A stretch of DNA of 64,000 nucleotides from Fidelibacterota bacterium. GTDB taxonomy: Bacteria; Fidelibacterota; UBA8477; JABMPR01. This document shows positions 13,306 through 63,170 of the stretch, one piece after another. How positions within the stretch are numbered: position 1 is the stretch's first letter; each line of letters begins with the position of its first letter. A model generated the notes under the pieces. It saw only the letters and a list, made by a program, of their open reading frames with translations, did not search any database and was not told the DNA's origin. The stretch spans positions 1 to 64,000 of the forward strand of contig JADHVL010000015.1 of assembly GCA_016784025.1 (NCBI GenBank). The letters run 5' to 3'. Position numbers and translations under genes: made by a program.

Positions 13306-15333
13306 ATGAGCGAGCAAAAAAACGGTCCTGGCGGAATTATTCAAGAACTTCGAAATCGAAGGGTCTTCCGAGCCGTTGCAGTATATCTAGGGGTGGGTTT
13401 TGCTCTCCTGGAAGCAGCAGATATTGTCGTACCAATGCTAGGGTTGCCTGGTTTCGTGGTGAAGGCAGTATTTTGGTTGCTGATTGCCGGTTTTCCAGTA
13501 GCTATTGGTTTGGCATGGACCTTCCAGTTTACCCCTGAAGGTTTACGCCGTTCACCTACATCGGGCGAAAAACAAACAGAAGAGCAGAAACCCTTCACTG
13601 GGAACTCTGTCATCATTGTCTTGCTTCTGATTATTGTGGGACTCCTGGCCTATCCCAGGATACAGTCTCCACCACCAACAGATATGGCTGCCCAGAACAA
13701 ACAGGCTGATTCACTTGATGCTAAGGCCGTGGCTGTATTGCCCTTCACAAATTTTTCTGCCTCAGAAGAGGATGCCTATTTTGCCGATGGAATTCATGAT
13801 GATATCCTGACTCAATTATCCAAGATCAGGGACCTGCGGATAATTTCTCGAACCACTATGATCAAATACAAATCCTCCGATCTCAGCATTAGTGAAATTG
13901 CCAAAGAAGTGGGTGCGGCAAATATTCTTGAGGGGAGTGTACGTCGAGCCGGTGACCAGGTTCGAATCGTTGCTCAGTTGATTAAAGCCAAATCTGATGA
14001 GCATCTCTGGGCTGAGACTTATGATCGAGAATACGCCGATATCTTTGCTATTCAGACCGATGTTGCCAGGAAAATTGCTTCAGCATTAAAATCAGCTCTG
14101 ACTCCTGAAGAAGAGCAGCAGTTGGAGAATATCCCAACTTCAAATATGGCTGCGTATGATTACTTCCTGAAGGGCAACCACTTCTGGTATACCAAGACCA
14201 CCGAAGAGGGCAACCTGAAAGCCGTAGCCATGTATGAAGAAGCCATCAAGCTGGATCCAGATTTTGGTTTAGCCTATGCCCGTCAATCTGTAGCTCATTC
14301 CGTACTTTTTCAGTCTCCGGACTGGGATCCAAGTCTTGAGAGAAAAGAGTTGGCCCGGAATACTCTGGAACGAGCAAAACTATTAATCCCGAATCATCCG
14401 GAAGTCCATTTTGCCCAGGGTATCTTTTACCAATGGTGTCTGGATGACCCGGCGTCAGCTATTTTGGAATTTGAGATTGCCGCTGAAGGGCAACCTGGAA
14501 ATGGCGAGACAACCAGGCACCTGGGAGAACTTTATGCCAGAGCTGGAAATTGGCTTAAAGCAAAGATTTATTTAGAGAGATCATATGAACTTGAACCGGA
14601 TGGAATTGGAAATGCAGGGTGGTTAGCTGGATATTACTCCCTAGTGGGTGATAACAAAACAGCGGATATCTATTATAAGCTGGCCATTCAATCTTATCCG
14701 GAGAATGCCACCGCCTATCGATTCTACGCTAACCAGCTAAAAAATGCATATGGCGACTTGGATGGGGCACGACGAATCTTTAACGAGGGTGTTTTAAATT
14801 CTGATAATCCTTCATTGCTGGCGTCCCATAGAGCTCAGCTGGAAATTGAAGTAGGTGATTATGAAGCTGCATTGAAGATTATCCAGGAGGATTATAGTGG
14901 GGAGTTCTCGGCTTTCCATAAAAGCAAGATCTACTATTTGCAGAAGAACACAAGTGGGTTATCTATTGAACTTGAACACTCCCGCAAAAATATTGAAAGT
15001 AAACTAGAAGAGAAACCGGATGAGGCCTTTCTTGTCAGCAGCTTGGGTCTAATTCATGCAATGGCAGGAGATAAGGCTAATGCAATTGATGCAGGCAAAA
15101 GGGCAATTGAATTGGAACCGGTTTCTAAAGATGCTCTCAATGGACCTGATCATCACTTTAGGCTGGCAATTATTTATAATTTCGTGGGTGAAACTGAATT
15201 GGCTATAGATGAACTGGAATATTTGCTTTCATTCAAAAGTGGATATACAAAATGGCAATTCAGACTGAATCCAGCTTTTAATTCGCTTCACGATCATCCC
15301 CGTTACCAAAAGCTCATTATAAGCAACATCTGA
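13306..15333 (+). CDS. Membrane-anchored FlgO/TolB-like TPR protein (paralogue 1)
   Basis: 675 residues. The N-terminus has an amphipathic start (IIQELRNRRVFRAVAVYLG) and two membrane segments (residues about 22-65), then a third near 100-117 that places the rest outside the cytosol. Residues about 135-285 form the FlgO/TolB N-terminal-like domain: AVAVLPFTNFS, FADGIHDDILTQLSKI, ILEGSVRR, HLWAETYDREYADIFAIQ. The remainder is a series of TPR helices (for example GLAYARQSVAH, TTRHLGELYARAG, ATAYRFYANQ). First of three tandem paralogues. Similar proteins are common in FCB and acidobacterial genomes; their role is unknown, with a scaffold in the cell envelope likely. Confidence 0.8.
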   Translation: MSEQKNGPGGIIQELRNRRVFRAVAVYLGVGFALLEAADIVVPMLGLPGFVVKAVFWLLIAGFPVAIGLAWTFQFTPEGLRRSPTSGEKQTEEQKPFTGNSVIIVLLLIIVGLLAYPRIQSPPPTDMAAQNKQADSLDAKAVAVLPFTNFSASEEDAYFADGIHDDILTQLSKIRDLRIISRTTMIKYKSSDLSISEIAKEVGAANILEGSVRRAGDQVRIVAQLIKAKSDEHLWAETYDREYADIFAIQTDVARKIASALKSALTPEEEQQLENIPTSNMAAYDYFLKGNHFWYTKTTEEGNLKAVAMYEEAIKLDPDFGLAYARQSVAHSVLFQSPDWDPSLERKELARNTLERAKLLIPNHPEVHFAQGIFYQWCLDDPASAILEFEIAAEGQPGNGETTRHLGELYARAGNWLKAKIYLERSYELEPDGIGNAGWLAGYYSLVGDNKTADIYYKLAIQSYPENATAYRFYANQLKNAYGDLDGARRIFNEGVLNSDNPSLLASHRAQLEIEVGDYEAALKIIQEDYSGEFSAFHKSKIYYLQKNTSGLSIELEHSRKNIESKLEEKPDEAFLVSSLGLIHAMAGDKANAIDAGKRAIELEPVSKDALNGPDHHFRLAIIYNFVGETELAIDELEYLLSFKSGYTKWQFRLNPAFNSLHDHPRYQKLIISNI

Positions 15334-53441: not shown

Positions 53442-53752
53442 GCTTCAATATTTACCCCAAATCAGGTTCTGGCAAATGATTCCAGGCTGGAGGACAGAGA
53501 TAAATATTACCATTTTTGTCACTCTCAGATGCGAGAACTATTTCTCGAAATTCAGAGAAATGTAATGGATTAACTAGTTAACTGAATAAATACTCGCCAA
53601 AATCAGCTTATTTGAAGCGCGGCAATTGTTTTGCTAAGCTTTTTATTTGCGACAGCTCTCTCTAATTAGCCTAAATGCGAGTCATTAGCAGTTACTCCAG
53701 TCTTTTGGCACAGCCTTTGTAAATACCGTATTTGAGAATACAGAAAAATTTA
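53442..53752. promoter_or_regulatory. Divergent regulatory region of mpg operon and cytochrome locus
   Basis: 311 nt with no gene. From left to right: an inverted repeat TTTCTC/GAGAAA at about 53540-53559, a perfect 12-bp palindrome TTAACTAGTTAA at 53570-53581, a dyad GAGT-N11-ACTC at 53679-53697, and a sigma54-like promoter at 53705-53720 (separate entry). The two dyads are candidate operators for the adjacent MerR-type regulator or for a sigma54 activator. Confidence 0.5.
53705..53720 (+). promoter_or_regulatory. Sigma54-like promoter of the cytochrome locus
   Basis: TTGGCACAGCCTTTGT fits the -24/-12 consensus TGGCAC-N5-TTGC: the -24 TTGGCAC is perfect and the -12 TTG is present with T in place of the final C, at correct spacing. 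The start site would be near 53732, about 21 nt before the ATG of the regulator gene. Confidence 0.6.
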
Positions 53753-54223
53753 ATGAGCATAAATCCAAATACTGAGCCCTCAGCCACACCTCCCAAAGGT
53801 GAAGAAATCTATACACCAAGGGAAGTAGCTCACAGGCTGAACCTTTCTGTAGAGAGCCTTCGTTTGTATGAGCGTGAGGGTTTGCTCGTTCCCCTCAAGT
53901 TGGACTCCGGTCACAGACGCTATACTGATTCTGATATTGAATGGATCACTTGTATTCAAAAACAGATTCATGAGAACAAACTAAATTTTGCAGGCATTCG
54001 CTACATTCTTTCAATGTTGCCCTGTCACGAGATGAAGCCCTGTTGCCTGGAAGACTATCAAACATGTCCTGCTGGAGATAGAAGTTGTAGACCCTGCTGG
54101 GACTTTGATGATACGCCTTGTCGGAATAAAGGAGAAAATTGCAGAACCTGTGTGGTTTACCAGCAGGTCCTCAATGTTGAAAACCTAAAAAAAATATTAT
54201 CGGTGAAATTTAAATGCGATTAA
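53753..54223 (+). CDS. MerR-type regulator with cysteine-rich C-terminus
   Basis: 156 residues. The N-terminal winged HTH is of MerR type (YTPREVAHRLNLSVESLRLYEREGLLVP, then HRRYTDSDIEWITCIQKQI). The tail holds ten cysteines, with CCLEDYQTCPAGDRSCRPCW and CRNKGENCRTCVVY resembling two-CW-type motifs; such a cluster could bind an iron-sulfur centre, haem or metal and sense redox state. An upstream TTG at 53732 is in frame but coincides with the predicted transcription start. The last 10 nt overlap the first cytochrome gene, so regulator and cytochrome are coupled. Its likely target is this locus. Confidence 0.82.
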   Translation: MSINPNTEPSATPPKGEEIYTPREVAHRLNLSVESLRLYEREGLLVPLKLDSGHRRYTDSDIEWITCIQKQIHENKLNFAGIRYILSMLPCHEMKPCCLEDYQTCPAGDRSCRPCWDFDDTPCRNKGENCRTCVVYQQVLNVENLKKILSVKFKCD

Positions 54224-55782
54224 TACAAAAAATATGGATTACCACACTTCTGGTGTGGAGTTTCTCCTTTTTGAGCTGTGATGCGATCAATCCTACCAGT
54301 GAGGGAGATTTGACGGATTATACCTGCGAGGGTTGCCACACAAATCGATCAACACTGGATGATGTTATTGAAACGCTGAATCTGGAACCACCAGACGAAG
54401 GTCCTGAAGCGCCTGGCTGAGGCGGTGGAGCAGTACCGTTGGTACTATCGGAAAAAGTGTGGATACGTTTGAATGCTATTCGTGGAGTTGAATCCTTTTC
54501 GGATATTGATCCCGTGCATGCAGCCATTGGTTGTGCCGGTTGTCATGGTGGATCCTCCTCAGTAGATGCTAAAGATGATACATCCGCATATCGCGAGGCT
54601 CATACTGGTATGATGCGCGACCCTTCTGCCGTCGGTGAATTGGGTTGTAGTGGCGGAAGCTGTCATGCTGATATTGTCGCTCGTAATGAGACCAGTATGC
54701 ACAGTAACCTCTGGGGTGAAAAAGCACATGTGGCCCTGAGAAATGGGTATGAAACATTTGAAGAATGCCCCTCTGATATTAAAGATGGCTTTGCCAAAGA
54801 TTGCAATAGCTGTCACACGACTTGTGGACAATGTCATATCAGTCGTCCACATGCCGCAGGTGGTGGCTTCCAAAAACAACTTGTAGGCTTTAGCCACAAA
54901 TTTATGCCAACCCCCAGCGAAGAAAATGTCTGTACAGCCTGTCATGGATCACGGGTAGGTGATGATTGGAATGCCAACCAGGAACGACTTCCTGGAAATG
55001 TACCTGATGTGCACAATGATTATGGCTATACCTGTCTGGATTGTCATACTGAAGATATGCATGGTGAAGGGGAAACAGATGCCCAGTACACTTCTCGTTA
55101 TCAGGTTGCTGATTTACCCAAATGTATTGATTGCCATCAGGTAGACAATGATGATAACGCCTATCACGTCAGGCACTGGCCAAATGCCGATTCCTCTGAT
55201 GGATCGGATCTGGCCTGTTTTGTCTGCCATTCACAGCAATATAATAATTGTAATACCTGTCACGCCGGAACTTGGAAGGACGAGTACAATGAGCACAATA
55301 CAGATGAGTATCGTGTTTATCCTCAGTTCAAGATTGGTCGCAACCCCTATTATGGTGAAGTGGGTCATCCACATACTGAATCGGCCTGGATCACCGTGAG
55401 ACACGTACCTGTTTCTCCTGATGCTTTTAAAAACTGGAATATTGATCCCTGGGATATGCAGGATTTATCCATGACAAAGAATATGGAGACCTGGAAATAT
55501 ACCAGCCCTCATAATATTCAACGCTGGACAGAAAGAACCTTAGTTGATAGTGCCTGGGCAAATAGTTCAACCCAGGATTATACAACAGATGATTGCTATA
55601 CGAATTGCCATATGCACGGAGACATTGGAGCATATACAGCAGTTAATGATGCGCTTTATTTAATAGATGAAAATATGGAGAATGATATTACCAATGATGA
55701 TTTGATGGACGAGATCCCATTCAATACTCTTACGAGTTTGGGTCGTCTCTCAAATGGTAATTATTGTTCTGCCTGTCATTAG
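54214..55782 (+). CDS. Dodecahaem lipoprotein cytochrome c with in-frame TGA (predicted selenocysteine)
   Basis: One frame of 522 codons interrupted only by TGA at 54418-54420 (codon 69), between EAPG and GGGAVP. Before it: lipoprotein signal with lipobox FLSC and haem motif CEGCH. After it: CAGCH, CSGGSCH (CX4CH), CNSCH, CGQCH, CTACH, CLDCH, CIDCH, CFVCH, CNTCH, CYTNCH (CX3CH), CSACH. That makes ten canonical and two unusual motifs. The downstream part begins with no ATG, ribosome site or export signal, so it cannot be a separate secreted cytochrome; readthrough is needed. A hairpin with SECIS geometry follows the TGA, so I predict Sec69. The alternatives are a nonsense mutation or sequence error. 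Probably on the outer-membrane surface, acting as the terminal or bridging cytochrome. Confidence 0.75.
54418..54446 (+). promoter_or_regulatory. Putative bacterial SECIS element following in-frame TGA
   Basis: AGTACC (54432-54437) pairs perfectly with GGTACT (54441-54446) around the loop GTT. The loop G is the 18th base after the TGA. Bacterial SECIS models ask for a stem with a small loop carrying G in its first positions about 16-37 nt from the UGA, and the E. coli fdhF element has its loop G at the same distance. The stem is short (6 bp, no extension). Confidence 0.6.
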
Positions 55783-55828: not shown

Positions 55829-56830
55829 ATGAAACTTGATTGGAGACTAGTAATGGTTTTAGTGTTGTCACTAGGACTGATGGTTGGATGTGAAAAGGAC
55901 GATGAAGAAGATGCAGTAGTGGGGACATTCAGTGATTTGTCAACCTACATGCAGGATAATGGGCTTGATTTGCCAGCTCAGGTCGCATCAGGTTGGGTGA
56001 AGGCAGCAAATGCGATTGTAGATACCAACACCTACACGATTCCTGGATATACTGTTCTAGATATTCGTGCAACAGCTGATTATAACGCTGGTCATATCGA
56101 CGGCGCTATTGATGCCAGTCTTGGAAATATCCTGGCTGATGCTGAAGCTAATGCAGCTGGCACAAATGGCTATCTGATTGTATGCTACTCAGGTCAGTCT
56201 GCAGGTCATGCATCCATGGCATTGCGCTTGATGGGTTACACATCAACCGTCCTCAAATGGGGAATGTCTGGTTGGAATGCAGATTTTGCAGGCTCATGGA
56301 ACAATAACGCAGGTCATGACAATGGCAATAACGCAGCTGGCAATGCTAACTGGGTTACAACTGCGGCTCCAGCTCTTGAAACCTATGATTATCCTGATTG
56401 GGAATCTGAAACAACAGAAGGCGCGGCTCTACTCGTTGAGCGTGTAGAAGCAGCACTTGCTGATGGTTTCCAGGCAGTTGCCGGGTACGGAGCAGAAGGT
56501 GTGATGGAGAATTTAGCTAACTATCAAATCATCAACTTCTGGCCTGAGTCAGATTATCTTGCATTTGGTCATTTTGATGGTGCATATCAAATGAAACCTA
56601 TCTCATTGGCAGATGATGAAGTTGCTGCTTTTGATCCAGATATGACAACTGCTCTCTATTGTTACACTGGACAAACATCATCAACAGCAACATTCTGGTT
56701 TAACGTGCTCGGTTATCAAGTTAAGAGTGTGAAATTTGGTGTAAATACACTTAATTATGATGCTCTCTATGATGCTGGAAAACCAACCTGGCATGGACCT
56801 GAAGATTATGATTATGTTGTAGAAGGTTAA
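55829..56830 (+). CDS. Lipoprotein with two rhodanese domains
   Basis: 333 residues, lipoprotein signal (VLVLSLGLMVGC, C21). Two rhodanese-like domains: the first (about 55-155) with VLDIRATADYNAGHIDGAI and active-site loop CYSGQSAGH, the second (about 195-320) with NFWPESDYLAFGHFDGA and CYTGQTSS; both retain the cysteine. The domains are separated by an Asn/Gly-rich linker. Geobacter extracellular electron conduits include a rhodanese-like lipoprotein too, so a role in sulfur, selenium or tellurium oxyanion handling, or in conduit assembly, is plausible. GGAGG precedes the ATG; a terminator follows. Confidence 0.85.
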   Translation: MKLDWRLVMVLVLSLGLMVGCEKDDEEDAVVGTFSDLSTYMQDNGLDLPAQVASGWVKAANAIVDTNTYTIPGYTVLDIRATADYNAGHIDGAIDASLGNILADAEANAAGTNGYLIVCYSGQSAGHASMALRLMGYTSTVLKWGMSGWNADFAGSWNNNAGHDNGNNAAGNANWVTTAAPALETYDYPDWESETTEGAALLVERVEAALADGFQAVAGYGAEGVMENLANYQIINFWPESDYLAFGHFDGAYQMKPISLADDEVAAFDPDMTTALYCYTGQTSSTATFWFNVLGYQVKSVKFGVNTLNYDALYDAGKPTWHGPEDYDYVVEG

Positions 56831-56856: not shown

Positions 56857-57717
56857 TTGAAATTATATTTCAATATAGTCTTTACCGGAGGGAGCCGAAT
56901 TCTATTCGGCTCCCTTTTATTGACTAGCTTTCTTTTTGGACAGCTCACATTTCCTGATGTGCAAAATCCACACGGGAGTGAGGACTGTTCTTTTTGTCAT
57001 ACTGCACCACTTGAAGCAGACGCAACCAATCTTAAAAAAGATGTCTGCATTCAATGCCATTCTGCAGCTTCAGTAAATGATATGATCCATCCGCTTCAAA
57101 ACATCAATCCCAAAGCTAAAAAGATGTCCATCCCTGCCAGCTTTAAACTGGATGCTGATGGAAGTTTGGGATGCCTGACCTGTCACCAGGTCGCCTGCAA
57201 AATTGATCGCTCCAACAGGACCTTTTTACGAGGGGGACCCTATAAACGAGAGATCGATTTTTGTTATAATTGTCATAGCAAAGCAGACTACAGAAAAATG
57301 AATCCCCACAAACAGGTTCAAACTGATGGTAGTATTGACAATTCAACCTGTTTGCAGTGTCATGTGAAACAGCCCAGTAAAGATGATCACCCCACTATAG
57401 CCCGAGAGATGCAGCTGGATATGGCTGCAACCTGCAACAAATGCCATTCTCTCCATTCCCATGAACAAAATCATCAGGGCAAGAATATCGAATTATCCAA
57501 AAAAGCGACTGTAAAGCGCTTTAATGAAACACAACAAAAATTTGGGCTCACCTTGCCCCTTTCTCAGGATAATCTTATTCAATGCAATACCTGTCACTAC
57601 ACTCATAACCGGGGGACCCTCGCTGCCGATCAGGTGGTCTACGAGGGTGACGGAGAGAACCAGCGTTTCTTACGCCTATCAAAAGAGAACTTGTGCTATG
57701 CCTGCCACGATCTATAG
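56857..57717 (+). CDS. Periplasmic octahaem cytochrome c (c3-like)
   Basis: Up to 286 residues; eight CXXCH motifs (CSFCH, CIQCH, CLTCH, CYNCH, CLQCH, CNKCH, CNTCH, CYACH) with histidines spread as in c3-type bis-His cytochromes. The start is uncertain: the frame begins at TTG 56857 and contains a signal peptide (ILFGSLLLTSFLFG-Q) whose codons include the terminator hairpin at 56890. No ATG is available before the mature part. GGAGG at 56887 lies 7 nt before an ATT in frame. The motif NPHGSEDCSFCHT resembles cytochromes paired with b-type cytochrome modules. The last 20 nt overlap the next gene. Confidence 0.8.
   Translation: MKLYFNIVFTGGSRILFGSLLLTSFLFGQLTFPDVQNPHGSEDCSFCHTAPLEADATNLKKDVCIQCHSAASVNDMIHPLQNINPKAKKMSIPASFKLDADGSLGCLTCHQVACKIDRSNRTFLRGGPYKREIDFCYNCHSKADYRKMNPHKQVQTDGSIDNSTCLQCHVKQPSKDDHPTIAREMQLDMAATCNKCHSLHSHEQNHQGKNIELSKKATVKRFNETQQKFGLTLPLSQDNLIQCNTCHYTHNRGTLAADQVVYEGDGENQRFLRLSKENLCYACHDL
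56890..56920 (+). terminator. Perfect intrinsic terminator inside the start of the next cytochrome gene
   Basis: An 11-bp perfect stem GGGAGCCGAAT / ATTCGGCTCCC with a TCT loop, then TTTTATT. It lies 60 nt after the rhodanese stop and inside the region that encodes the signal peptide of the next cytochrome. It would separate the first two locus genes from the rest, or act as an attenuator. Confidence 0.85.
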
Positions 57718-58714
57718 ACATTCAATCCTAGTACTTTTGCTTGTAGTGCTCACTGCACTTTCTGCACCGGCACAACAGGCCGATGCTGAAAACTGCAATC
57801 TATGCCACAGTCTGGCATTGTTAGGAATTGCAACACCTTCAGAAGGGTTGCGAAGTTTCGAAGTTACGGCCAACGCTTACCGTCATTCAACCCACAGAAA
57901 TGTCATCTGTAGAGATTGTCATACTGATATCAACGTCTTTCCTCATCCACAAGAGGTTGCCAAGGTTGAATGTTACAAGGCCTGTCACATTACCAAACCA
58001 TTCGCCCTCACAGGCTACTCCCATGCTGAGCAGGCAGATGCTCATGCTATTAGTGCTCATGGTTTCAATTCTGAATATTCAGCTGAAAAAAATGAGGCTA
58101 AACCTGATTGCAAGTACTGTCACTCCAATACATTTCGGAATGTTGTCAATGATGAGGCGTTACAAGAGAGTAGTCAACACTGTGTTCGTTGCCATGAAGG
58201 AGAAGGTCTTGCAGGTGTGATCCTTCATGTGAGTTCCCATTCTGGGCACAGGACAGCTGAGGCTTCTATAGATGTTGTAGAATTATGTTCATCCTGCCAT
58301 GCTGATCAGGGACATATGAAGCAATTTGACGTCAATCTGACTCAAGTTGGCGGTTATGAAAGACACTTCCATGGCAAGGCTCTGAAACGCGGTCTGAATG
58401 AAGTCGCCAATTGCATGGATTGCCACCGCAACCACTTAAATCTTCCTGCCGAAGATCCCAATTCAAGTATTCACCCGAATAATATTCAACAAACTTGTAG
58501 TGCAAACACCTATTGTCATTCAGATGTATCCAGTAAGTTTGCTGCTTCTGCAATTCACTCCGAACCTACCACTCAAAACAATCCCATCCTCTTCTATGTC
58601 GAATGGGGATTCATCATATTAACCGCTGGTACCATGGCTTTACTCTTTGCCCATATTTTTCTCGATTTTGGACGCTGGGTTGGTGATATCTGGTTGCGGA
58701 GGAAAGAGAAATGA
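57698..58714 (+). CDS. Membrane-anchored octahaem cytochrome c
   Basis: 338 residues from ATG 57698, inside the end of the preceding gene. Signal peptide (SILVLLLVVLTALSAPAQQ), periplasmic domain with CNLCH, CRDCH, CYKACH (CX3CH), CKYCH, CVRCH, CSSCH, CMDCH and CSANTYCH (CX5CH), then a C-terminal membrane helix (VEWGFIILTAGTMALLFAHIFL) and a basic cytosolic end. This layout (periplasmic multihaem head and C-terminal anchor, followed by a b-type cytochrome overlapping by 4 nt) fits a quinol dehydrogenase complex that takes electrons from the b haems. Confidence 0.9.
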   Translation: MPATIYRHSILVLLLVVLTALSAPAQQADAENCNLCHSLALLGIATPSEGLRSFEVTANAYRHSTHRNVICRDCHTDINVFPHPQEVAKVECYKACHITKPFALTGYSHAEQADAHAISAHGFNSEYSAEKNEAKPDCKYCHSNTFRNVVNDEALQESSQHCVRCHEGEGLAGVILHVSSHSGHRTAEASIDVVELCSSCHADQGHMKQFDVNLTQVGGYERHFHGKALKRGLNEVANCMDCHRNHLNLPAEDPNSSIHPNNIQQTCSANTYCHSDVSSKFAASAIHSEPTTQNNPILFYVEWGFIILTAGTMALLFAHIFLDFGRWVGDIWLRRKEK

Positions 58715-59403
58715 GTCGAGACTACACGCGTTTTTCACTGAGTCAACGTTTACAGCATGTATTCATGTTTGTGCCCTTTATCATTTTGGTATTGACTGGA
58801 TTCCCCATCAAATTTCCTGAAAGCGAGTTTTGGAGTTTCATTATGTCAGCCGCCGGTGGGATTGAAAATGCTCGTATCATCCATCGTTTCGCTGCCGCAG
58901 TCATGATTCTTGATTTCGCCTTTCATATTCTTTATGTCGGCTACAATCTCATCAAGCAAAGACCCTCCCTGGCCGATATGCATCTCGTGCCCAATGGAAG
59001 AGATGGTAGGAATATCATAGAAAATTTGAAGTATTTCCTGTTTCTGTCGGATGAGCGCCCCAGGTTTCATAAATTCTCATATCTTGAGAAATTTGATTAC
59101 TGGGCAGTGTTCTGGGGTATGTTTATCATGGCAGGAAGTGGCATCATTTTGTGGTTTCCCGTTCTATTCAGCAAGTTTTTACCAGGAATTGTGATTCAGA
59201 TCGCCTACATCGCCCATAGTGATGAAGCAATGTTGGCACTCCTGGCCATCATTATCTGGCATTTTTATAATGTTCATTTCAATCCTCGCATCTGGCCTGC
59301 AAATAAGGTCTGGTATAAGGGAACTTTATCTGAGGAAGAAATGGAGTATGAGCATCCTCTTGAATTAGAGGAAATCAAAGCCAGAGAGGAGGCTTCAAAA
59401 TGA
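58711..59403 (+). CDS. Four-helix b-type cytochrome (cytochrome b561 / FdhG-like)
   Basis: 230 residues with four membrane helices (FMFVPFIILVLTGFPI; ARIIHRFAAAVMILDFAFHILYVGY; FWGMFIMAGSGIILWFPVLF; AMLALLAIIIWHFYNVHF). Histidines in QRLQHVF, IIHRFA, FAFHIL and WHFYNVHFNP are placed for two b haems, as in formate dehydrogenase gamma and hydrogenase b subunits. It probably oxidises menaquinol and hands electrons to the membrane-anchored cytochrome encoded just before. GGAGG precedes the ATG; it overlaps both neighbours by 4 nt. Confidence 0.9.
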   Translation: MSRDYTRFSLSQRLQHVFMFVPFIILVLTGFPIKFPESEFWSFIMSAAGGIENARIIHRFAAAVMILDFAFHILYVGYNLIKQRPSLADMHLVPNGRDGRNIIENLKYFLFLSDERPRFHKFSYLEKFDYWAVFWGMFIMAGSGIILWFPVLFSKFLPGIVIQIAYIAHSDEAMLALLAIIIWHFYNVHFNPRIWPANKVWYKGTLSEEEMEYEHPLELEEIKAREEASK

Positions 59404-60197
59404 AAAAAGCCTTGAAACTCCTTTATGGGCTTCTCGCATTGGTTCTGGGTACCTTTGTTTCAGTAACTCTCATCAAGGCAGTGGTCTCTCATGATACCCC
59501 ACTTGAAGTTGAAGTTCTTTCTGAATCCCGCTTCCCCGATTATGTAGAGCAGCTCAATAGCCATTATGACAGTTACGAGAACCGTCAGAGCCATTTTCAC
59601 CAGACCAAGGAACGCTATTTTCTGCCAATGGAACGGCAGGAAAATTGTTTGAACTGCCATTCGCTTTGGCCACACAAAAAAGACCTGAGAACACGGGCTT
59701 TTAATAACCAGCACTCCAGATATATGTCATGCATGAGTTGTCACATTGATGATCAACCCGGTCGACCTGTAAAATTTGAATGGTATAACTTTGGTGTGGA
59801 TAATTCCATTACTCGCCAGGGTGCCTATGGCTTGGTCCGCGATGCCAATGAAAAACTTTCCGGTCCAGACAACTTTATCAGCAAAATTATTCCTGTCATC
59901 TCTGATGGTGAGATCAAAACCCGTCTATTTACTTCATACAGTTCTGAACAAGCAGTCGCGTATCGAAACTCAGTAGATGCAGGGAACTACGTGGATGAAG
60001 TCCAGGCCAGGAAAGATGCTGAAGCTCTGGTGGGTGAGAAGGCATTGACCTGTTCGAACTGTCATTCAGAATCTGCCTCATTCCCATGGGAGACCCTGGG
60101 TTTTAAGGGCGATAGATTAAATGAAATGCGGCATTCGGCAGTCGTGGGTATGGTTGAGAAATACGAATCATTCTATTTCCCTCCTGTTTTTGAGTAA
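59400..60197 (+). CDS. Trihaem periplasmic cytochrome c
   Basis: 265 residues. N-terminal uncleaved or cleaved signal (KLLYGLLALVLGTFVSVTLI), then three CXXCH motifs (CLNCH, CMSCH, CSNCH) separated by long haem-free segments, which is a sparse layout compared with its neighbours. AGGAGG lies before the ATG, which overlaps the b-type cytochrome by 4 nt. Likely a subunit or electron shuttle of the membrane complex. Confidence 0.87.
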   Translation: MKKALKLLYGLLALVLGTFVSVTLIKAVVSHDTPLEVEVLSESRFPDYVEQLNSHYDSYENRQSHFHQTKERYFLPMERQENCLNCHSLWPHKKDLRTRAFNNQHSRYMSCMSCHIDDQPGRPVKFEWYNFGVDNSITRQGAYGLVRDANEKLSGPDNFISKIIPVISDGEIKTRLFTSYSSEQAVAYRNSVDAGNYVDEVQARKDAEALVGEKALTCSNCHSESASFPWETLGFKGDRLNEMRHSAVVGMVEKYESFYFPPVFE

Positions 60198-60219
60198 ATC
60201 AGAGATATCGAGAGCATTC

Positions 60220-61095
60220 ATGAGATTTAAGAAGCTGCTAATTGTTGTTCTGGCGACCAGCTTTGGCCTGGTACAAAGTCTTATTGCCCAGGAAGTAAGC
60301 TTCTCACTTGTCAGGACCCTTGAAGCTGATTTTAATTTTCCCACAGATCTCTGTGGAAATGATCGAGGTGATGTCTTTGTTCTGGATGGCATGAATGATC
60401 GAGTCGTTCAGCTCAAAACCAGCGGTGAAGTGGTTGAAATCAGACCTCAACGAGAATCTATTTACAAAGCAGTAGGAATCGCCTGGATTAATGGTGATCT
60501 CTGGATTGCCGATACGCCTCGTTCACGTCTTCTGAAAATGGAGATGAATGGACGCATTAGCCAGATTGTCAAGCTGGATCATCAAACTGAACCTGTGGAT
60601 GTTGCTGATATGGGTGATAATATGGTTGTGACAGACCGCCTGAATCATACCATCACAGTTCTGGATAAAGATTTCAAAGAAAAATATTACTGGGGGAAAA
60701 GAGGAGAGAAGGTTGGCGAATTTATCAATCCTGGCTTTCTGGCTTCCGGTCCTGAAAATAGAATCCTTATCGGAGACATACTTAACCGCAGGGTTGTTTC
60801 CTTTTCACCCAGTGGACGCTACCCGCAAATCATTGCCAAACCAGGTGTTGAAAAAGGCCAAATATTCAGACCTAAAGGGATTGCTCTCGATTCACAAAAA
60901 CGTATTTGGGTAGCTGATGGCTATACAGGTGCTCTTCAAGCCTTCTCTATTTCCGGGAAATATCTGGGGATAGCCACCAGCGAGGGTAAAAGTCTCGCCT
61001 TGTCAGCTCCCATGGGAGTTTTTATAGACAAACAGGATCGTCTGTGGGTGGTGGAGTCATTCGCAAGCAAAGTCAGCGTTTGGCGGATCAAATGA
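60220..61095 (+). CDS. Secreted NHL-repeat beta-propeller
   Basis: 291 residues from ATG 60220 (an earlier in-frame codon at 60121 lies within the preceding gene). Signal peptide KKLLIVVLATSFGLVQSLIA-Q, then about six NHL-type blades (NFPTDLCGNDRGDVFVLDGMNDRVVQL; AVGIAWINGDLWIADTPRSRLLKM; VVTDRLNHTITVLD; FRPKGIALDSQKRIWVADGYTGALQAF; SAPMGVFIDKQDRLWVVESFASKVSV). No catalytic site visible. NHL proteins next to multihaem cytochromes may act as scaffold for the complex. Stop overlaps the 18-haem gene by 4 nt. Confidence 0.85.
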   Translation: MRFKKLLIVVLATSFGLVQSLIAQEVSFSLVRTLEADFNFPTDLCGNDRGDVFVLDGMNDRVVQLKTSGEVVEIRPQRESIYKAVGIAWINGDLWIADTPRSRLLKMEMNGRISQIVKLDHQTEPVDVADMGDNMVVTDRLNHTITVLDKDFKEKYYWGKRGEKVGEFINPGFLASGPENRILIGDILNRRVVSFSPSGRYPQIIAKPGVEKGQIFRPKGIALDSQKRIWVADGYTGALQAFSISGKYLGIATSEGKSLALSAPMGVFIDKQDRLWVVESFASKVSVWRIK

Positions 61096-63170
61096 TGAAC
61101 ACCTCAAAAAGGTTAATCGTCGTTTTCGCTATTCTGTGTTTGATGGGTGCTTTTGCCCAGGGGCAACATAACCCGGATGGTCGCAAAGTGAGTCTGGATT
61201 GTGTCACCTGCCATGTCACCTGGCATGACAATATCGATCCCCAGAAATCATTGCTCCCCAAAATGGATGCACCCATTCAGATTCAAGGTATGCCTGCTCG
61301 CATTGCCACAGCAGCAATGTGTTTTACCTGCCACGATGGAACGGTAAAGGATTCTCGTCAAACTTTCGCGTCCAGCAACCATCAGATGGATATGGATGTA
61401 AAGCATGCAAATATTAAAGATCTACCACTTGATAAGAACGGTAAGATCTATTGTGGTACCTGCCACACTCCCCATAGTCTGAAACCTACACGAAATGGAG
61501 GTCTGGCGCCCTTCTTACGAATGGAAAAGATGAATTCTGCGATATGTCTGGATTGTCACTCCAATCAAGCCAAATCTCATAAAAATCACCCCATCAAGGT
61601 GAAAGTCTCACCTGACAATACCATGGCGGAAAACACCTTCTGGGGTAAAGACGGCACTATGGAATGTATGACCTGTCATCCCATTCATGGAACAGAATCC
61701 GTGGTAGGCGTGACTGGAAATGACCGCAGTGAACTCTGCTCCTCATGTCATGAAGCCTATTTTAACATTAAGCTTACTGATCATGATCTCACCAGCTCCT
61801 TGATGAATAAATCAAGCGATATAGGTCCTGATTTTGGTGGCCATGATCCATGTGCAGCCTGCCATGTCAGTCACGGCGGTCAAGCCGAGCATATGTGGGC
61901 CATGGAAATTGATCCGAAAGCAGGGGAGAATGGCTACTGTATTGGTTGTCATAGCGATAACGGTCTGGGTCAGGAAAAAACATTTTCACATGCCGGTCAC
62001 CCCGTATCAAAAATTAAGCTGAGAAAAAATATTCCTGCCCTGGGAATTAAAGCAGGTGACAAATTACTTTGTAAATCCTGTCACGATCCGCATCAATGGG
62101 AATTCTCAAACAAACACGCTGTGAATGTCAGCAATGAAGAAGGCACTGAATATACCTCCTTTTTGCGTTTGCCTGATGATGCCCAGGGACAGTTATGTGT
62201 GGCCTGCCACGCAGGACAATCCAGCATGTTCAATTCTGACCACAGTGTAGCCCGAGAAGGTTTCCAACAGTTATTCAGAGAATCAAACACATTAAACGGT
62301 CAGTGTACAGTTTGTCATGGGGCTCATACGGATGCTCTGGATGGATCCACAGAAGATGATCCCTATACTGTCCTGTGTATGCGCTGCCATGATGGTCAAC
62401 ATTTCGCCACATCAGTGGTTCATAATAACCATCCCATCGGTGTACCCTTTGAATCAAAAAGCAATCTCCATGGGTATAATAAGGATAGTCAAACTTTACT
62501 GAGCTGCAATACCTGTCATGATCCGCATAAGTGGGGTCAGACAGTGGAAAAATCTCAAACGGTGGATTTAAAGGGAGACGATAGAAACTCATTCCTCACC
62601 ATTTCAAACTGGCCGGAACCCAAGCTCTGTCTCGATTGTCATCCTGAGCAAGGGACTATCTTAAATTCAGATCATGATTTGACAGAAGAAGATAGAAGTG
62701 CCTGTAGTCTTTGTCATGCTCCCCACAATGCTGAAACAGAATATGGAATTTTAGCGAAATGGGGCGATGCTCCTGGTGCCAGTTTTAATGAAAAACATTG
62801 TTTCAGCTGTCATAGTGAACAGGGCTCAGCCTCAGCCAAACTGGTAGAGGGGTATAGTCATCCACGAGAATTCGGCATCCTGACTCCACCGGCAAGAGGA
62901 ACTGGAGATTGGTTGGATTTCCCCCTCTTTACGGAAGCGGGACCAAGCATGACCGTGGGTCATATCGATTGTTTCACCTGCCACAATCCCCATTCCTGGT
63001 CTTATAAAACCAAATTTCAAGAGCTGGGCTCTGAAAACGAAGAAGGAAATGATCTCACATCATTTTTACGCAATCCCAGTCAGTTGACACTTTGTACTGA
63101 TTGTCATGGCGAAAGCACACTCTGGAAATACAATTACTACCATGATCCAGTTAAGAGAAAGAGATACTAA
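61092..63170 (+). CDS. Secreted 18-haem cytochrome c
   Basis: 692 residues, start ATG 61092 overlapping the previous stop. Signal peptide (RLIVVFAILCLMGAFAQG-Q). I count 18 CXXCH motifs (CVTCH, CFTCH, CGTCH, CLDCH, CMTCH, CSSCH, CAACH, CIGCH, CKSCH, CVACH, CTVCH, CMRCH, CNTCH, CLDCH, CSLCH, CFSCH, CFTCH, CTDCH). Internal repeats are clear: blocks with C-x-x-C-H-(D/N)-P-H-x-W followed by (T/N)SFLR and L-C-x-x-C-H recur at three places (near residues 340, 490 and 640), each with an NSDH or similar histidine. This is the doubled-CXXCH type, suggesting growth by module duplication. Periplasmic or extracellular electron wire. Confidence 0.93.
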   Translation: MMNTSKRLIVVFAILCLMGAFAQGQHNPDGRKVSLDCVTCHVTWHDNIDPQKSLLPKMDAPIQIQGMPARIATAAMCFTCHDGTVKDSRQTFASSNHQMDMDVKHANIKDLPLDKNGKIYCGTCHTPHSLKPTRNGGLAPFLRMEKMNSAICLDCHSNQAKSHKNHPIKVKVSPDNTMAENTFWGKDGTMECMTCHPIHGTESVVGVTGNDRSELCSSCHEAYFNIKLTDHDLTSSLMNKSSDIGPDFGGHDPCAACHVSHGGQAEHMWAMEIDPKAGENGYCIGCHSDNGLGQEKTFSHAGHPVSKIKLRKNIPALGIKAGDKLLCKSCHDPHQWEFSNKHAVNVSNEEGTEYTSFLRLPDDAQGQLCVACHAGQSSMFNSDHSVAREGFQQLFRESNTLNGQCTVCHGAHTDALDGSTEDDPYTVLCMRCHDGQHFATSVVHNNHPIGVPFESKSNLHGYNKDSQTLLSCNTCHDPHKWGQTVEKSQTVDLKGDDRNSFLTISNWPEPKLCLDCHPEQGTILNSDHDLTEEDRSACSLCHAPHNAETEYGILAKWGDAPGASFNEKHCFSCHSEQGSASAKLVEGYSHPREFGILTPPARGTGDWLDFPLFTEAGPSMTVGHIDCFTCHNPHSWSYKTKFQELGSENEEGNDLTSFLRNPSQLTLCTDCHGESTLWKYNYYHDPVKRKRY

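Follow-up and report, generated by a model that had tools for sequence, protein, structure and literature searches.

Selenocysteine (Sec) has been predicted in multihaem c-type cytochromes before. In the passages cited here, ExtKL of Geobacter sulfurreducens is described as such a protein, with one in-frame TGA in its gene; it is encoded in the cluster extHIJKLMNOPQS together with the rhodanese lipoprotein ExtH, a b-type cytochrome and more multihaem cytochromes, and the reduction of selenite and tellurite in Geobacter is impaired when extI is lost (PMC5877670, PMC6148476). ExtKL is assigned five haems and 49.5 kDa and is called periplasmic (PMC6148476), and the twelve-haem cytochrome of the ext cluster is ExtM (PMC5877670). 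An octahaem tetrathionate reductase family cytochrome (TIGR04315) is likewise listed with Sec on the basis of GenBank annotation (PMC13188914, Table 1). In the portions of that 2026 review drawn on here, ExtKL and the octahaem form are the only Sec multihaem cytochromes, and no chemical role is assigned to the Sec of either one (PMC13188914). A reactive cysteine among glycines is described for SoxY, whose GGCGG cysteine binds sulfur substrates (cited part of PMC6067878). Here we analyze a gene at positions 54214-55782 on the forward strand of a 64,000-nucleotide stretch of a Fidelibacterota contig (JADHVL010000015.1; hereafter the window, meaning the whole stretch), which we interpret as encoding a lipoprotein cytochrome with Sec at codon 69. 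A preliminary description of this stretch, made from its letters alone, had known of no described example of a Sec-containing c-type cytochrome; that claim does not hold, as ExtKL had already been predicted (PMC5877670, PMC6148476, PMC13188914, in the parts cited).

The gene is a 522-codon frame, closed by TAG, whose only interruption is an in-frame TGA, codon 69 (54418-54420), as first described. The export signal and haem 1 were also correctly placed before the TGA: the signal peptide (54214-54279) ends in the lipobox FLSC, whose cysteine at codon 22 is invariant across a 68-member alignment of the family, and haem motif 1 is CEGCH (codons 38-42; 54325-54339). The TGA lies within a glycine-rich arm, APG-U-GGG (54409-54429), for which the usual pattern among aligned homologues is G-x-G-U-G-G. 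Haem motifs 2-12 follow (54532-55779), and the earlier count of eleven stands only if one CX4CH (codons 145-151) and one CX3CH (codons 461-466) are admitted beside nine CXXCH; the whole protein has ten strict CXXCH motifs and these two variants, 12 motifs in all. The product has both hallmarks of a multihaem c-type cytochrome lipoprotein, multiple CXXCH motifs and a lipobox. Very probably, it is exported, anchored by lipid and, as a cytochrome of twelve haem motifs, carries Sec on a flexible arm. The Pfam matches of the window protein and the 68 members are to general cytochrome models (the window protein matches PF14522 at 26 bits, with a cut-off of 24.8), and no NCBIfam model specific to the family was encountered among their matches.

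We consider Sec to be the highly likely reading of codon 69. The interpretation first given to 54214-55782, that of a putative selenoprotein gene, is supported by the TGA of its homologues, the Sec machinery of the genome, a covarying hairpin and purifying selection 3' of the TGA. Most of the computable checks proposed in the preliminary description turned out favorable. The broadest view of the homologues comes from the genome_contigs scan, in which 176 relatives were reduced to 79 distinct loci; one of these (L073) is truncated, and 71 of the 78 readable loci have TGA at the aligned codon 69. The remaining seven encode His (L070), Asp (L071), Cys (TGC, L072), Ala (L081), Tyr (L087), Trp (L105) and Arg (L116). 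The preliminary description had taken TGA or Cys at this position as a sign of Sec and had named Trp and Arg as signs against it; the 71 TGA loci bear the prediction out, one locus has Cys, and the six loci with none of these go against it. Residue 69 and its neighbors G68, G70 and G71 are each conserved in at least 90% of the 68 aligned members.

Two narrower searches were also made; many genomes recur among all three, and the counts are not additive. In 40 genomes, the window's own included, homologues were matched in 22. Besides the window itself, one TGA in the same column is found at 12 loci of the genus (L003-L010, L012-L015) and at two loci of another family (L019, L020), as well as at L025, which is cut by a contig end. 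The non-Sec forms in this set carry Cys (L011), His (L016), Asp (L017) or, in a shortened linker, Ala (L021), and position 69 is unreadable in the cut loci L018, L026 and L027. Three same-genus genomes also hold a second, diverged Sec paralogue with the motif GEGUGGSVAQL (L022:1016-2446, L023:934-2379, L024:1000-2403). Across the phylum (245 genomes), the family occurs in 42 genomes at E up to 1e-20; TGA is present in 37 of the 49 match rows, four of them with an additional TAA or TAG, and no stop in 12, of which two are fragments ending short of position 69. The record titles of relatives extend to Neomarinimicrobiota, KSB1, Calditrichota, Electryonea, Krumholzibacteria, Eisenbacteria, Gemmatimonadetes, Latescibacterota, Deltaproteobacteria, Dehalococcoidia and others, with some labels doubtful. 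The very similar loci L096, L097 and L098, for example, are labelled Latescibacterota, Gemmatimonas and Fibrobacter, which indicates that some record labels are unreliable. At one further locus (L185:6043-7512), a TGA occurs in a diverged setting, STUGDAG in place of GxGUGG.

Sec machinery was found in the window's genome (3.52 Mb, 86% complete), where the preliminary description had called for a search for selA, selB, selC and selD. It comprises selA (C23:4274-5362, E 1.8e-131), selB near it (C23:6949-8775, 343 bits, above the cut-off), selD (G000:C42:55748-56671, L148, 371 bits) and a tRNA-Sec with a UCA anticodon on C16 (72 bits). The selD match holds one in-frame TGA and is probably itself a selenoprotein gene. 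Among the 40 genomes, tRNA-Sec scores above the gathering score in 31 and SelA is present in 34. SelA is retained in the genomes with Cys, His and Asp forms (G002, G005, G019), and in G005 tRNA-Sec was not found above the gathering score. It is well supported that this genome reads codon 69 as Sec by means of the SelA, SelB, SelD and tRNA-Sec that it encodes, with a hairpin 17 bases 3' of the TGA directing the event. The cited part of one report gives selA, selB and selD but no selC for KSB1 (PMC9012183), while the KSB1 loci of the present family have the conserved TGA and the hairpin.

A hairpin shortly 3' of the TGA, with a G early in its loop, is the mark of a bacterial selenocysteine insertion sequence (SECIS). 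The 6-bp hairpin AGTACC-GTT-GGTACT (54432-54446) is present as first described, with 17 bases between the TGA and its loop (54438-54440), and in most members of the family the loop is GTT or GGA, as expected of this type of element. The 71 TGA loci fall into two registers, 44 in the first and 26 in the second, with L123 in neither and with L083 moved by hand from the second to the first. The first register (class A; 45 sequences including the window) has six pairs and a three-base loop, mostly GTT. Its pairing holds in 93.3% of cells, against 71.6% when the 3' letters are shuffled and 31-49% when they are slid, and 49 cells show a double change, against 13.6 in shuffles (none of 500 as high); two of the pairs each occur as three Watson-Crick types with no exceptions. 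The second register (class B; 26 sequences) has eight pairs and the loop GGA in 25 of 26, pairing in 96.2% of cells against 90.6% shuffled, nine double-change cells against 3.2 (again 0/500 as high), and one pair that is C-G or A-U throughout all 26. Under a joint criterion of at least five of six pairs in class A or seven of eight in class B, a hairpin is found at 67 of the 71 TGA loci, as compared with 1,280 of the 28,492 windows taken in frame from these genes. Only one of the seven non-TGA loci passes, and this is the Cys locus.

Other explanations of the TGA have to account for the protein that follows it. In comparisons of the window with four close relatives, dN/dS 3' of the TGA is 0.095, 0.070, 0.057 and 0.053, with two of the four dS values at about 1.6, near saturation. 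On the 5' side of the TGA, where three of the four comparisons were computable, it is 0.301, 0.176 and 0.158. Because dN/dS is as low as 0.05-0.10, the segment 3' of the TGA is constrained as protein, and the frame is kept in the close relatives, contrary to the decaying pseudogene that the preliminary description had named as refuting. A lone stop in a draft genome is what a pseudogene or a sequencing or assembly error would look like, but the same TGA recurs across many separate assemblies and selection continues beyond it; we give this explanation negligible probability, and the pseudogene is rejected on dN/dS. Reassignment of the genetic code is likewise rejected: since TGA is the stop codon of six of the 17 neighboring open reading frames (ORFs) listed, it is not generally read through. 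Finally, the TGA might be a true stop that ends a short haem lipopeptide, with translation restarting as a second gene at an in-frame TTG within the hairpin (54439-54441), which opens a mechanical 447-aa ORF and has GGTGGAG upstream. To deny the second half any start or ribosome site was thus too strong. However, the GGTGGAG stretch is formed by the Gly codons themselves, the TTG is unconserved and gives way to CTG in class B, the second product would have no signal peptide, which is required for c-type haem attachment, and both the TGA in 71 of 78 loci and the covarying hairpin would be left unexplained. We judge the TTG to be no real start and reject this two-gene arrangement as very improbable.

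A conserved companion of the Sec cytochrome is the neighboring gene at 55829-56830 on the same strand, which encodes a lipoprotein in which the rhodanese domain occurs twice (PF00581, E 6.2e-17, two stretches), with the active-site loops CYSGQS and CYTGQT; in most relatives each domain has a loop of the type C-[YW]-x-G. A rhodanese relative adjoins 70 of the 71 TGA loci by tblastn, and at the sole exception, L098, the contig ends 31 bases past the gene. ORF clustering by itself gave a rhodanese neighbor at 60 loci including the window, and tblastn extends this to the 70 TGA loci with room, the window and the Cys locus. The rhodanese lies upstream of the cytochrome at L123, L132, L136 and L138 and likewise upstream of the Sec paralogues L022-L024, and it is still adjacent to the diverged Sec locus L185. 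It was not seen at L025 (Sec, cut) or at L021, which is on the same contig as L081; L028 and L029 are non-Sec paralogues, each located after a Sec copy of its contig, and have rhodanese sequence upstream, beside that Sec copy. L181, L182 and L186-L188 are repeats or near copies of loci already counted.

Where Sec and Cys are both missing, no rhodanese neighbor was found by tblastn within the locus stretches of L070, L071, L081, L087 and L116, all with room downstream, nor at L184 (no Sec) within 2.1 kb downstream and 3.0 kb upstream; L105, with 116 bases downstream, and L183 (no Sec), with 252, are too short to judge. At the Cys locus (L072:7593-8018), the rhodanese ORF is shortened to 142 aa and has an altered loop, CVAGQT, as if it were decaying. 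A rhodanese stands beside 70 of 70 Sec loci with room and none of six non-Sec, non-Cys loci (Fisher, 4.6e-9, uncorrected for kinship). These six (L070, L071, L081, L087, L116 and L184) occupy six separate places in the tree, which as a whole requires at least eight changes for 11 non-Sec rows (Cys counted as non-Sec), six of them forced by well-supported branches. On this tree, Sec loss accompanies rhodanese absence or decay in seven lineages, six with no neighbor and one with the 142-aa remnant. We read the six non-Sec, non-Cys loci among the 78 (L105 included) as secondary losses, because they are only six and because rhodanese loss goes alongside wherever this could be judged. The genetic association of the Sec cytochrome with the rhodanese is strong, and functional coupling of the two, as far as gene neighborhoods can tell, is likely.

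What the pair might do is suggested by the properties of the arm. Two AlphaFold models, one for the window protein (mean pLDDT 82.6) and one for a KSB1 homologue (72.5), both have Sec within a stretch of pLDDT below 50, and the linker that bears it, between haem motifs 1 and 2, varies in length among members. The nearest working model for such an arm is the GGCGG cysteine of SoxY. We tentatively suggest that the Sec arm could be a swinging carrier for sulfane sulfur or selenium. The neighboring rhodanese lipoprotein would be the working partner of the cytochrome, its active-site cysteine handing sulfane sulfur (or selenium) to Sec, where the adduct would be a selenyl sulfide or diselenide-like; the haem chain would then feed electrons to this adduct and sulfide (or selenide) would be released. 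In the alternative direction, the haem chain would collect electrons from oxidation. Selenolates are generally better nucleophiles and better leaving groups than thiolates, which may be why the arm has Sec rather than Cys. Taking all of the evidence together, a selenoprotein with a rhodanese partner and a chalcogen-carrying arm is the best overall explanation, and one to which we attach moderate confidence. Somewhat more doubtful even than the carrier function is the further suggestion that the family represents an undescribed, widespread enzyme class in which a lipid-anchored cytochrome, a SoxY-like Sec arm, an obligate rhodanese partner and a haem wire are combined.

Several observations weigh against this explanation or one of its parts. 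Among the homologues, Cys occurs in just one of the seven non-TGA members of the 78-locus set, and the cytochrome is retained without Sec in some lineages. In two genomes with the TGA gene, both incomplete drafts, part of the machinery was not found: G013 has no SelA match and G011 no tRNA-Sec above the gathering score. Both hairpin registers were derived from the same data on which they were tested, the TGA locus L123 fits neither, and two measures of covariation exceed shuffling little or not at all, namely the number of pairs with a double change (class A, 5 against 3.8, with 28 of 500 shuffles as high; class B, 1 against 1.1) and the number of additional pair types (class A, 9 against 8.9; class B, 5 against 5.1). 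Folding of the sequence near the TGA, which the preliminary description had proposed as a check, was divided: the isolated 21-base hairpin folds (-6 kcal/mol, z -2.66), but the window's 51-base context folded alone prefers a different structure (z 0.27). The absence of the rhodanese was judged at locus stretches only, with 528 bases upstream in the case of L081, and copies elsewhere in the genomes were not sought. In Foldseek comparisons of both models, which were built without haem, to the Protein Data Bank (PDB), there was no match at E up to 10; by sequence profile, PDB chains gave weak and partial matches only, the best being NrfB at E 3.7e-5.

The resemblance to the ext cluster raises the possibility that the module instead reduces chalcogen oxyanions (selenite or tellurite), with Sec binding reduced selenium or tellurium. 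As in Geobacter, where ExtH and ExtKL are encoded in one cluster and extI loss impairs reduction of these oxyanions in the reports cited above, a predicted Sec multihaem cytochrome stands here beside a rhodanese lipoprotein and multihaem and b-type cytochromes. ExtKL differs in its five haems and periplasmic location from a protein with 12 haem motifs, a lipobox and a Sec arm after haem motif 1, and its profile (NF040886, cut-off 250 bits) exceeds the cut-off in none of 23 genomes, has no match at the present gene and is not among the NCBIfam families matched by the 68 members. ExtM is similar in its twelve haems and its profile (NF040943) weakly matches 21 of the 68 members (best E 2.3e-9); these matches, however, are confined to short haem-motif stretches, the ten members with individual scores stay at or below 33.9 bits where the cut-off is 800, the window protein has no match at E up to 0.01, and ExtM is not among the selenoproteins in the cited part of PMC13188914. 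One of three scanned partner rhodaneses weakly matches ExtH (E 1.2e-5), and no Ext cut-off was reached among the scored matches listed. As for counterparts of the extI-type porin, the ExtO Rieske protein and other ext components, three ORFs judged barrel-like by eye have no NCBIfam match, and seven of the eight window neighbors (57524-58714 being outside the scan) have no Ext family match at E 0.01. On this balance we regard oxyanion reduction as unlikely.

A different role for Sec would be that of a haem axial ligand, giving a selenolate-ligated haem rather than a chalcogen carrier. Thiolate-ligated haems exist, and in this multihaem protein Sec has haem motif 1 before it and haem motif 2 after it. 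The low confidence of both models at this residue and the variable linker argue against such a ligand, Ala and Tyr occupy the position in some members, and the tie to the rhodanese would be left unexplained; we consider axial ligation improbable. The comparison to SoxYZ, on which the chalcogen-carrying arm is modelled, also has limits: both have a reactive chalcogen residue flanked by glycines, but the GGCGG arm there is C-terminal, whereas here the arm is internal, carries Sec and belongs to a cytochrome, and the SoxY model is absent from the Pfam matches of the 68 members. The octahaem form is likewise a multihaem cytochrome listed with Sec, and the 68 members have no match to TIGR04315 at E up to 0.001. 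Membership in ExtKL, ExtM, SoxY and TIGR04315 was rejected, as the profile tests failed in each case.

The Sec cytochrome and its rhodanese lie in a run of genes on the forward strand. Upstream, a MerR-type regulator (53732-54223), whose ORF cluster is found at 28 loci, window included, overlaps the start of the cytochrome gene by 10 bases. Downstream follow a multihaem cytochrome of the same run (56857-57717); a multihaem cytochrome ORF (57524-58714), the listed first part of which overlaps the preceding gene; a membrane subunit resembling cytochrome b561 or formate dehydrogenase gamma (58711-59403; PF01292, E 6.5e-14); a small multihaem cytochrome (59400-60197); an NHL-repeat protein (60121-61095); and a large multihaem cytochrome (61044-63170). 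Past the window (G000:C26:64188-67474, L189), a 554-aa ORF without haem motifs is followed by an ORF with 11 CXXCH, and this pair is perhaps an outer-membrane conduit. Elsewhere in the window, at 15331, an in-frame TGA separates open stretches of 682 and 675 codons; these are likely two tandem genes in one frame, because an ATG follows three codons past the TGA.

We rate the present cytochrome family as new, unnamed and distinct from ExtKL, while Sec multihaem cytochromes as a kind had already been predicted. In the literature passages covered, no family with the present motif appears, and the phrase "Selenocysteine-containing cytochrome" was found in no papers. When TGA is read as a stop, these genes are split, and an apparently common selenoprotein is easily overlooked, along with some of the capacity of uncultured bacteria for electron transfer. 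The near-fixation of Sec across many bacterial groups, together with a rhodanese neighbor at 70 of 71 loci, allows a direct test of what Sec does in a haem protein. The pairing of Sec and rhodanese points to a widespread selenium-dependent transfer of sulfur or selenium outside the cell membrane. If this is true, sulfur or selenium chemistry would be coupled directly to long-range electron transfer.

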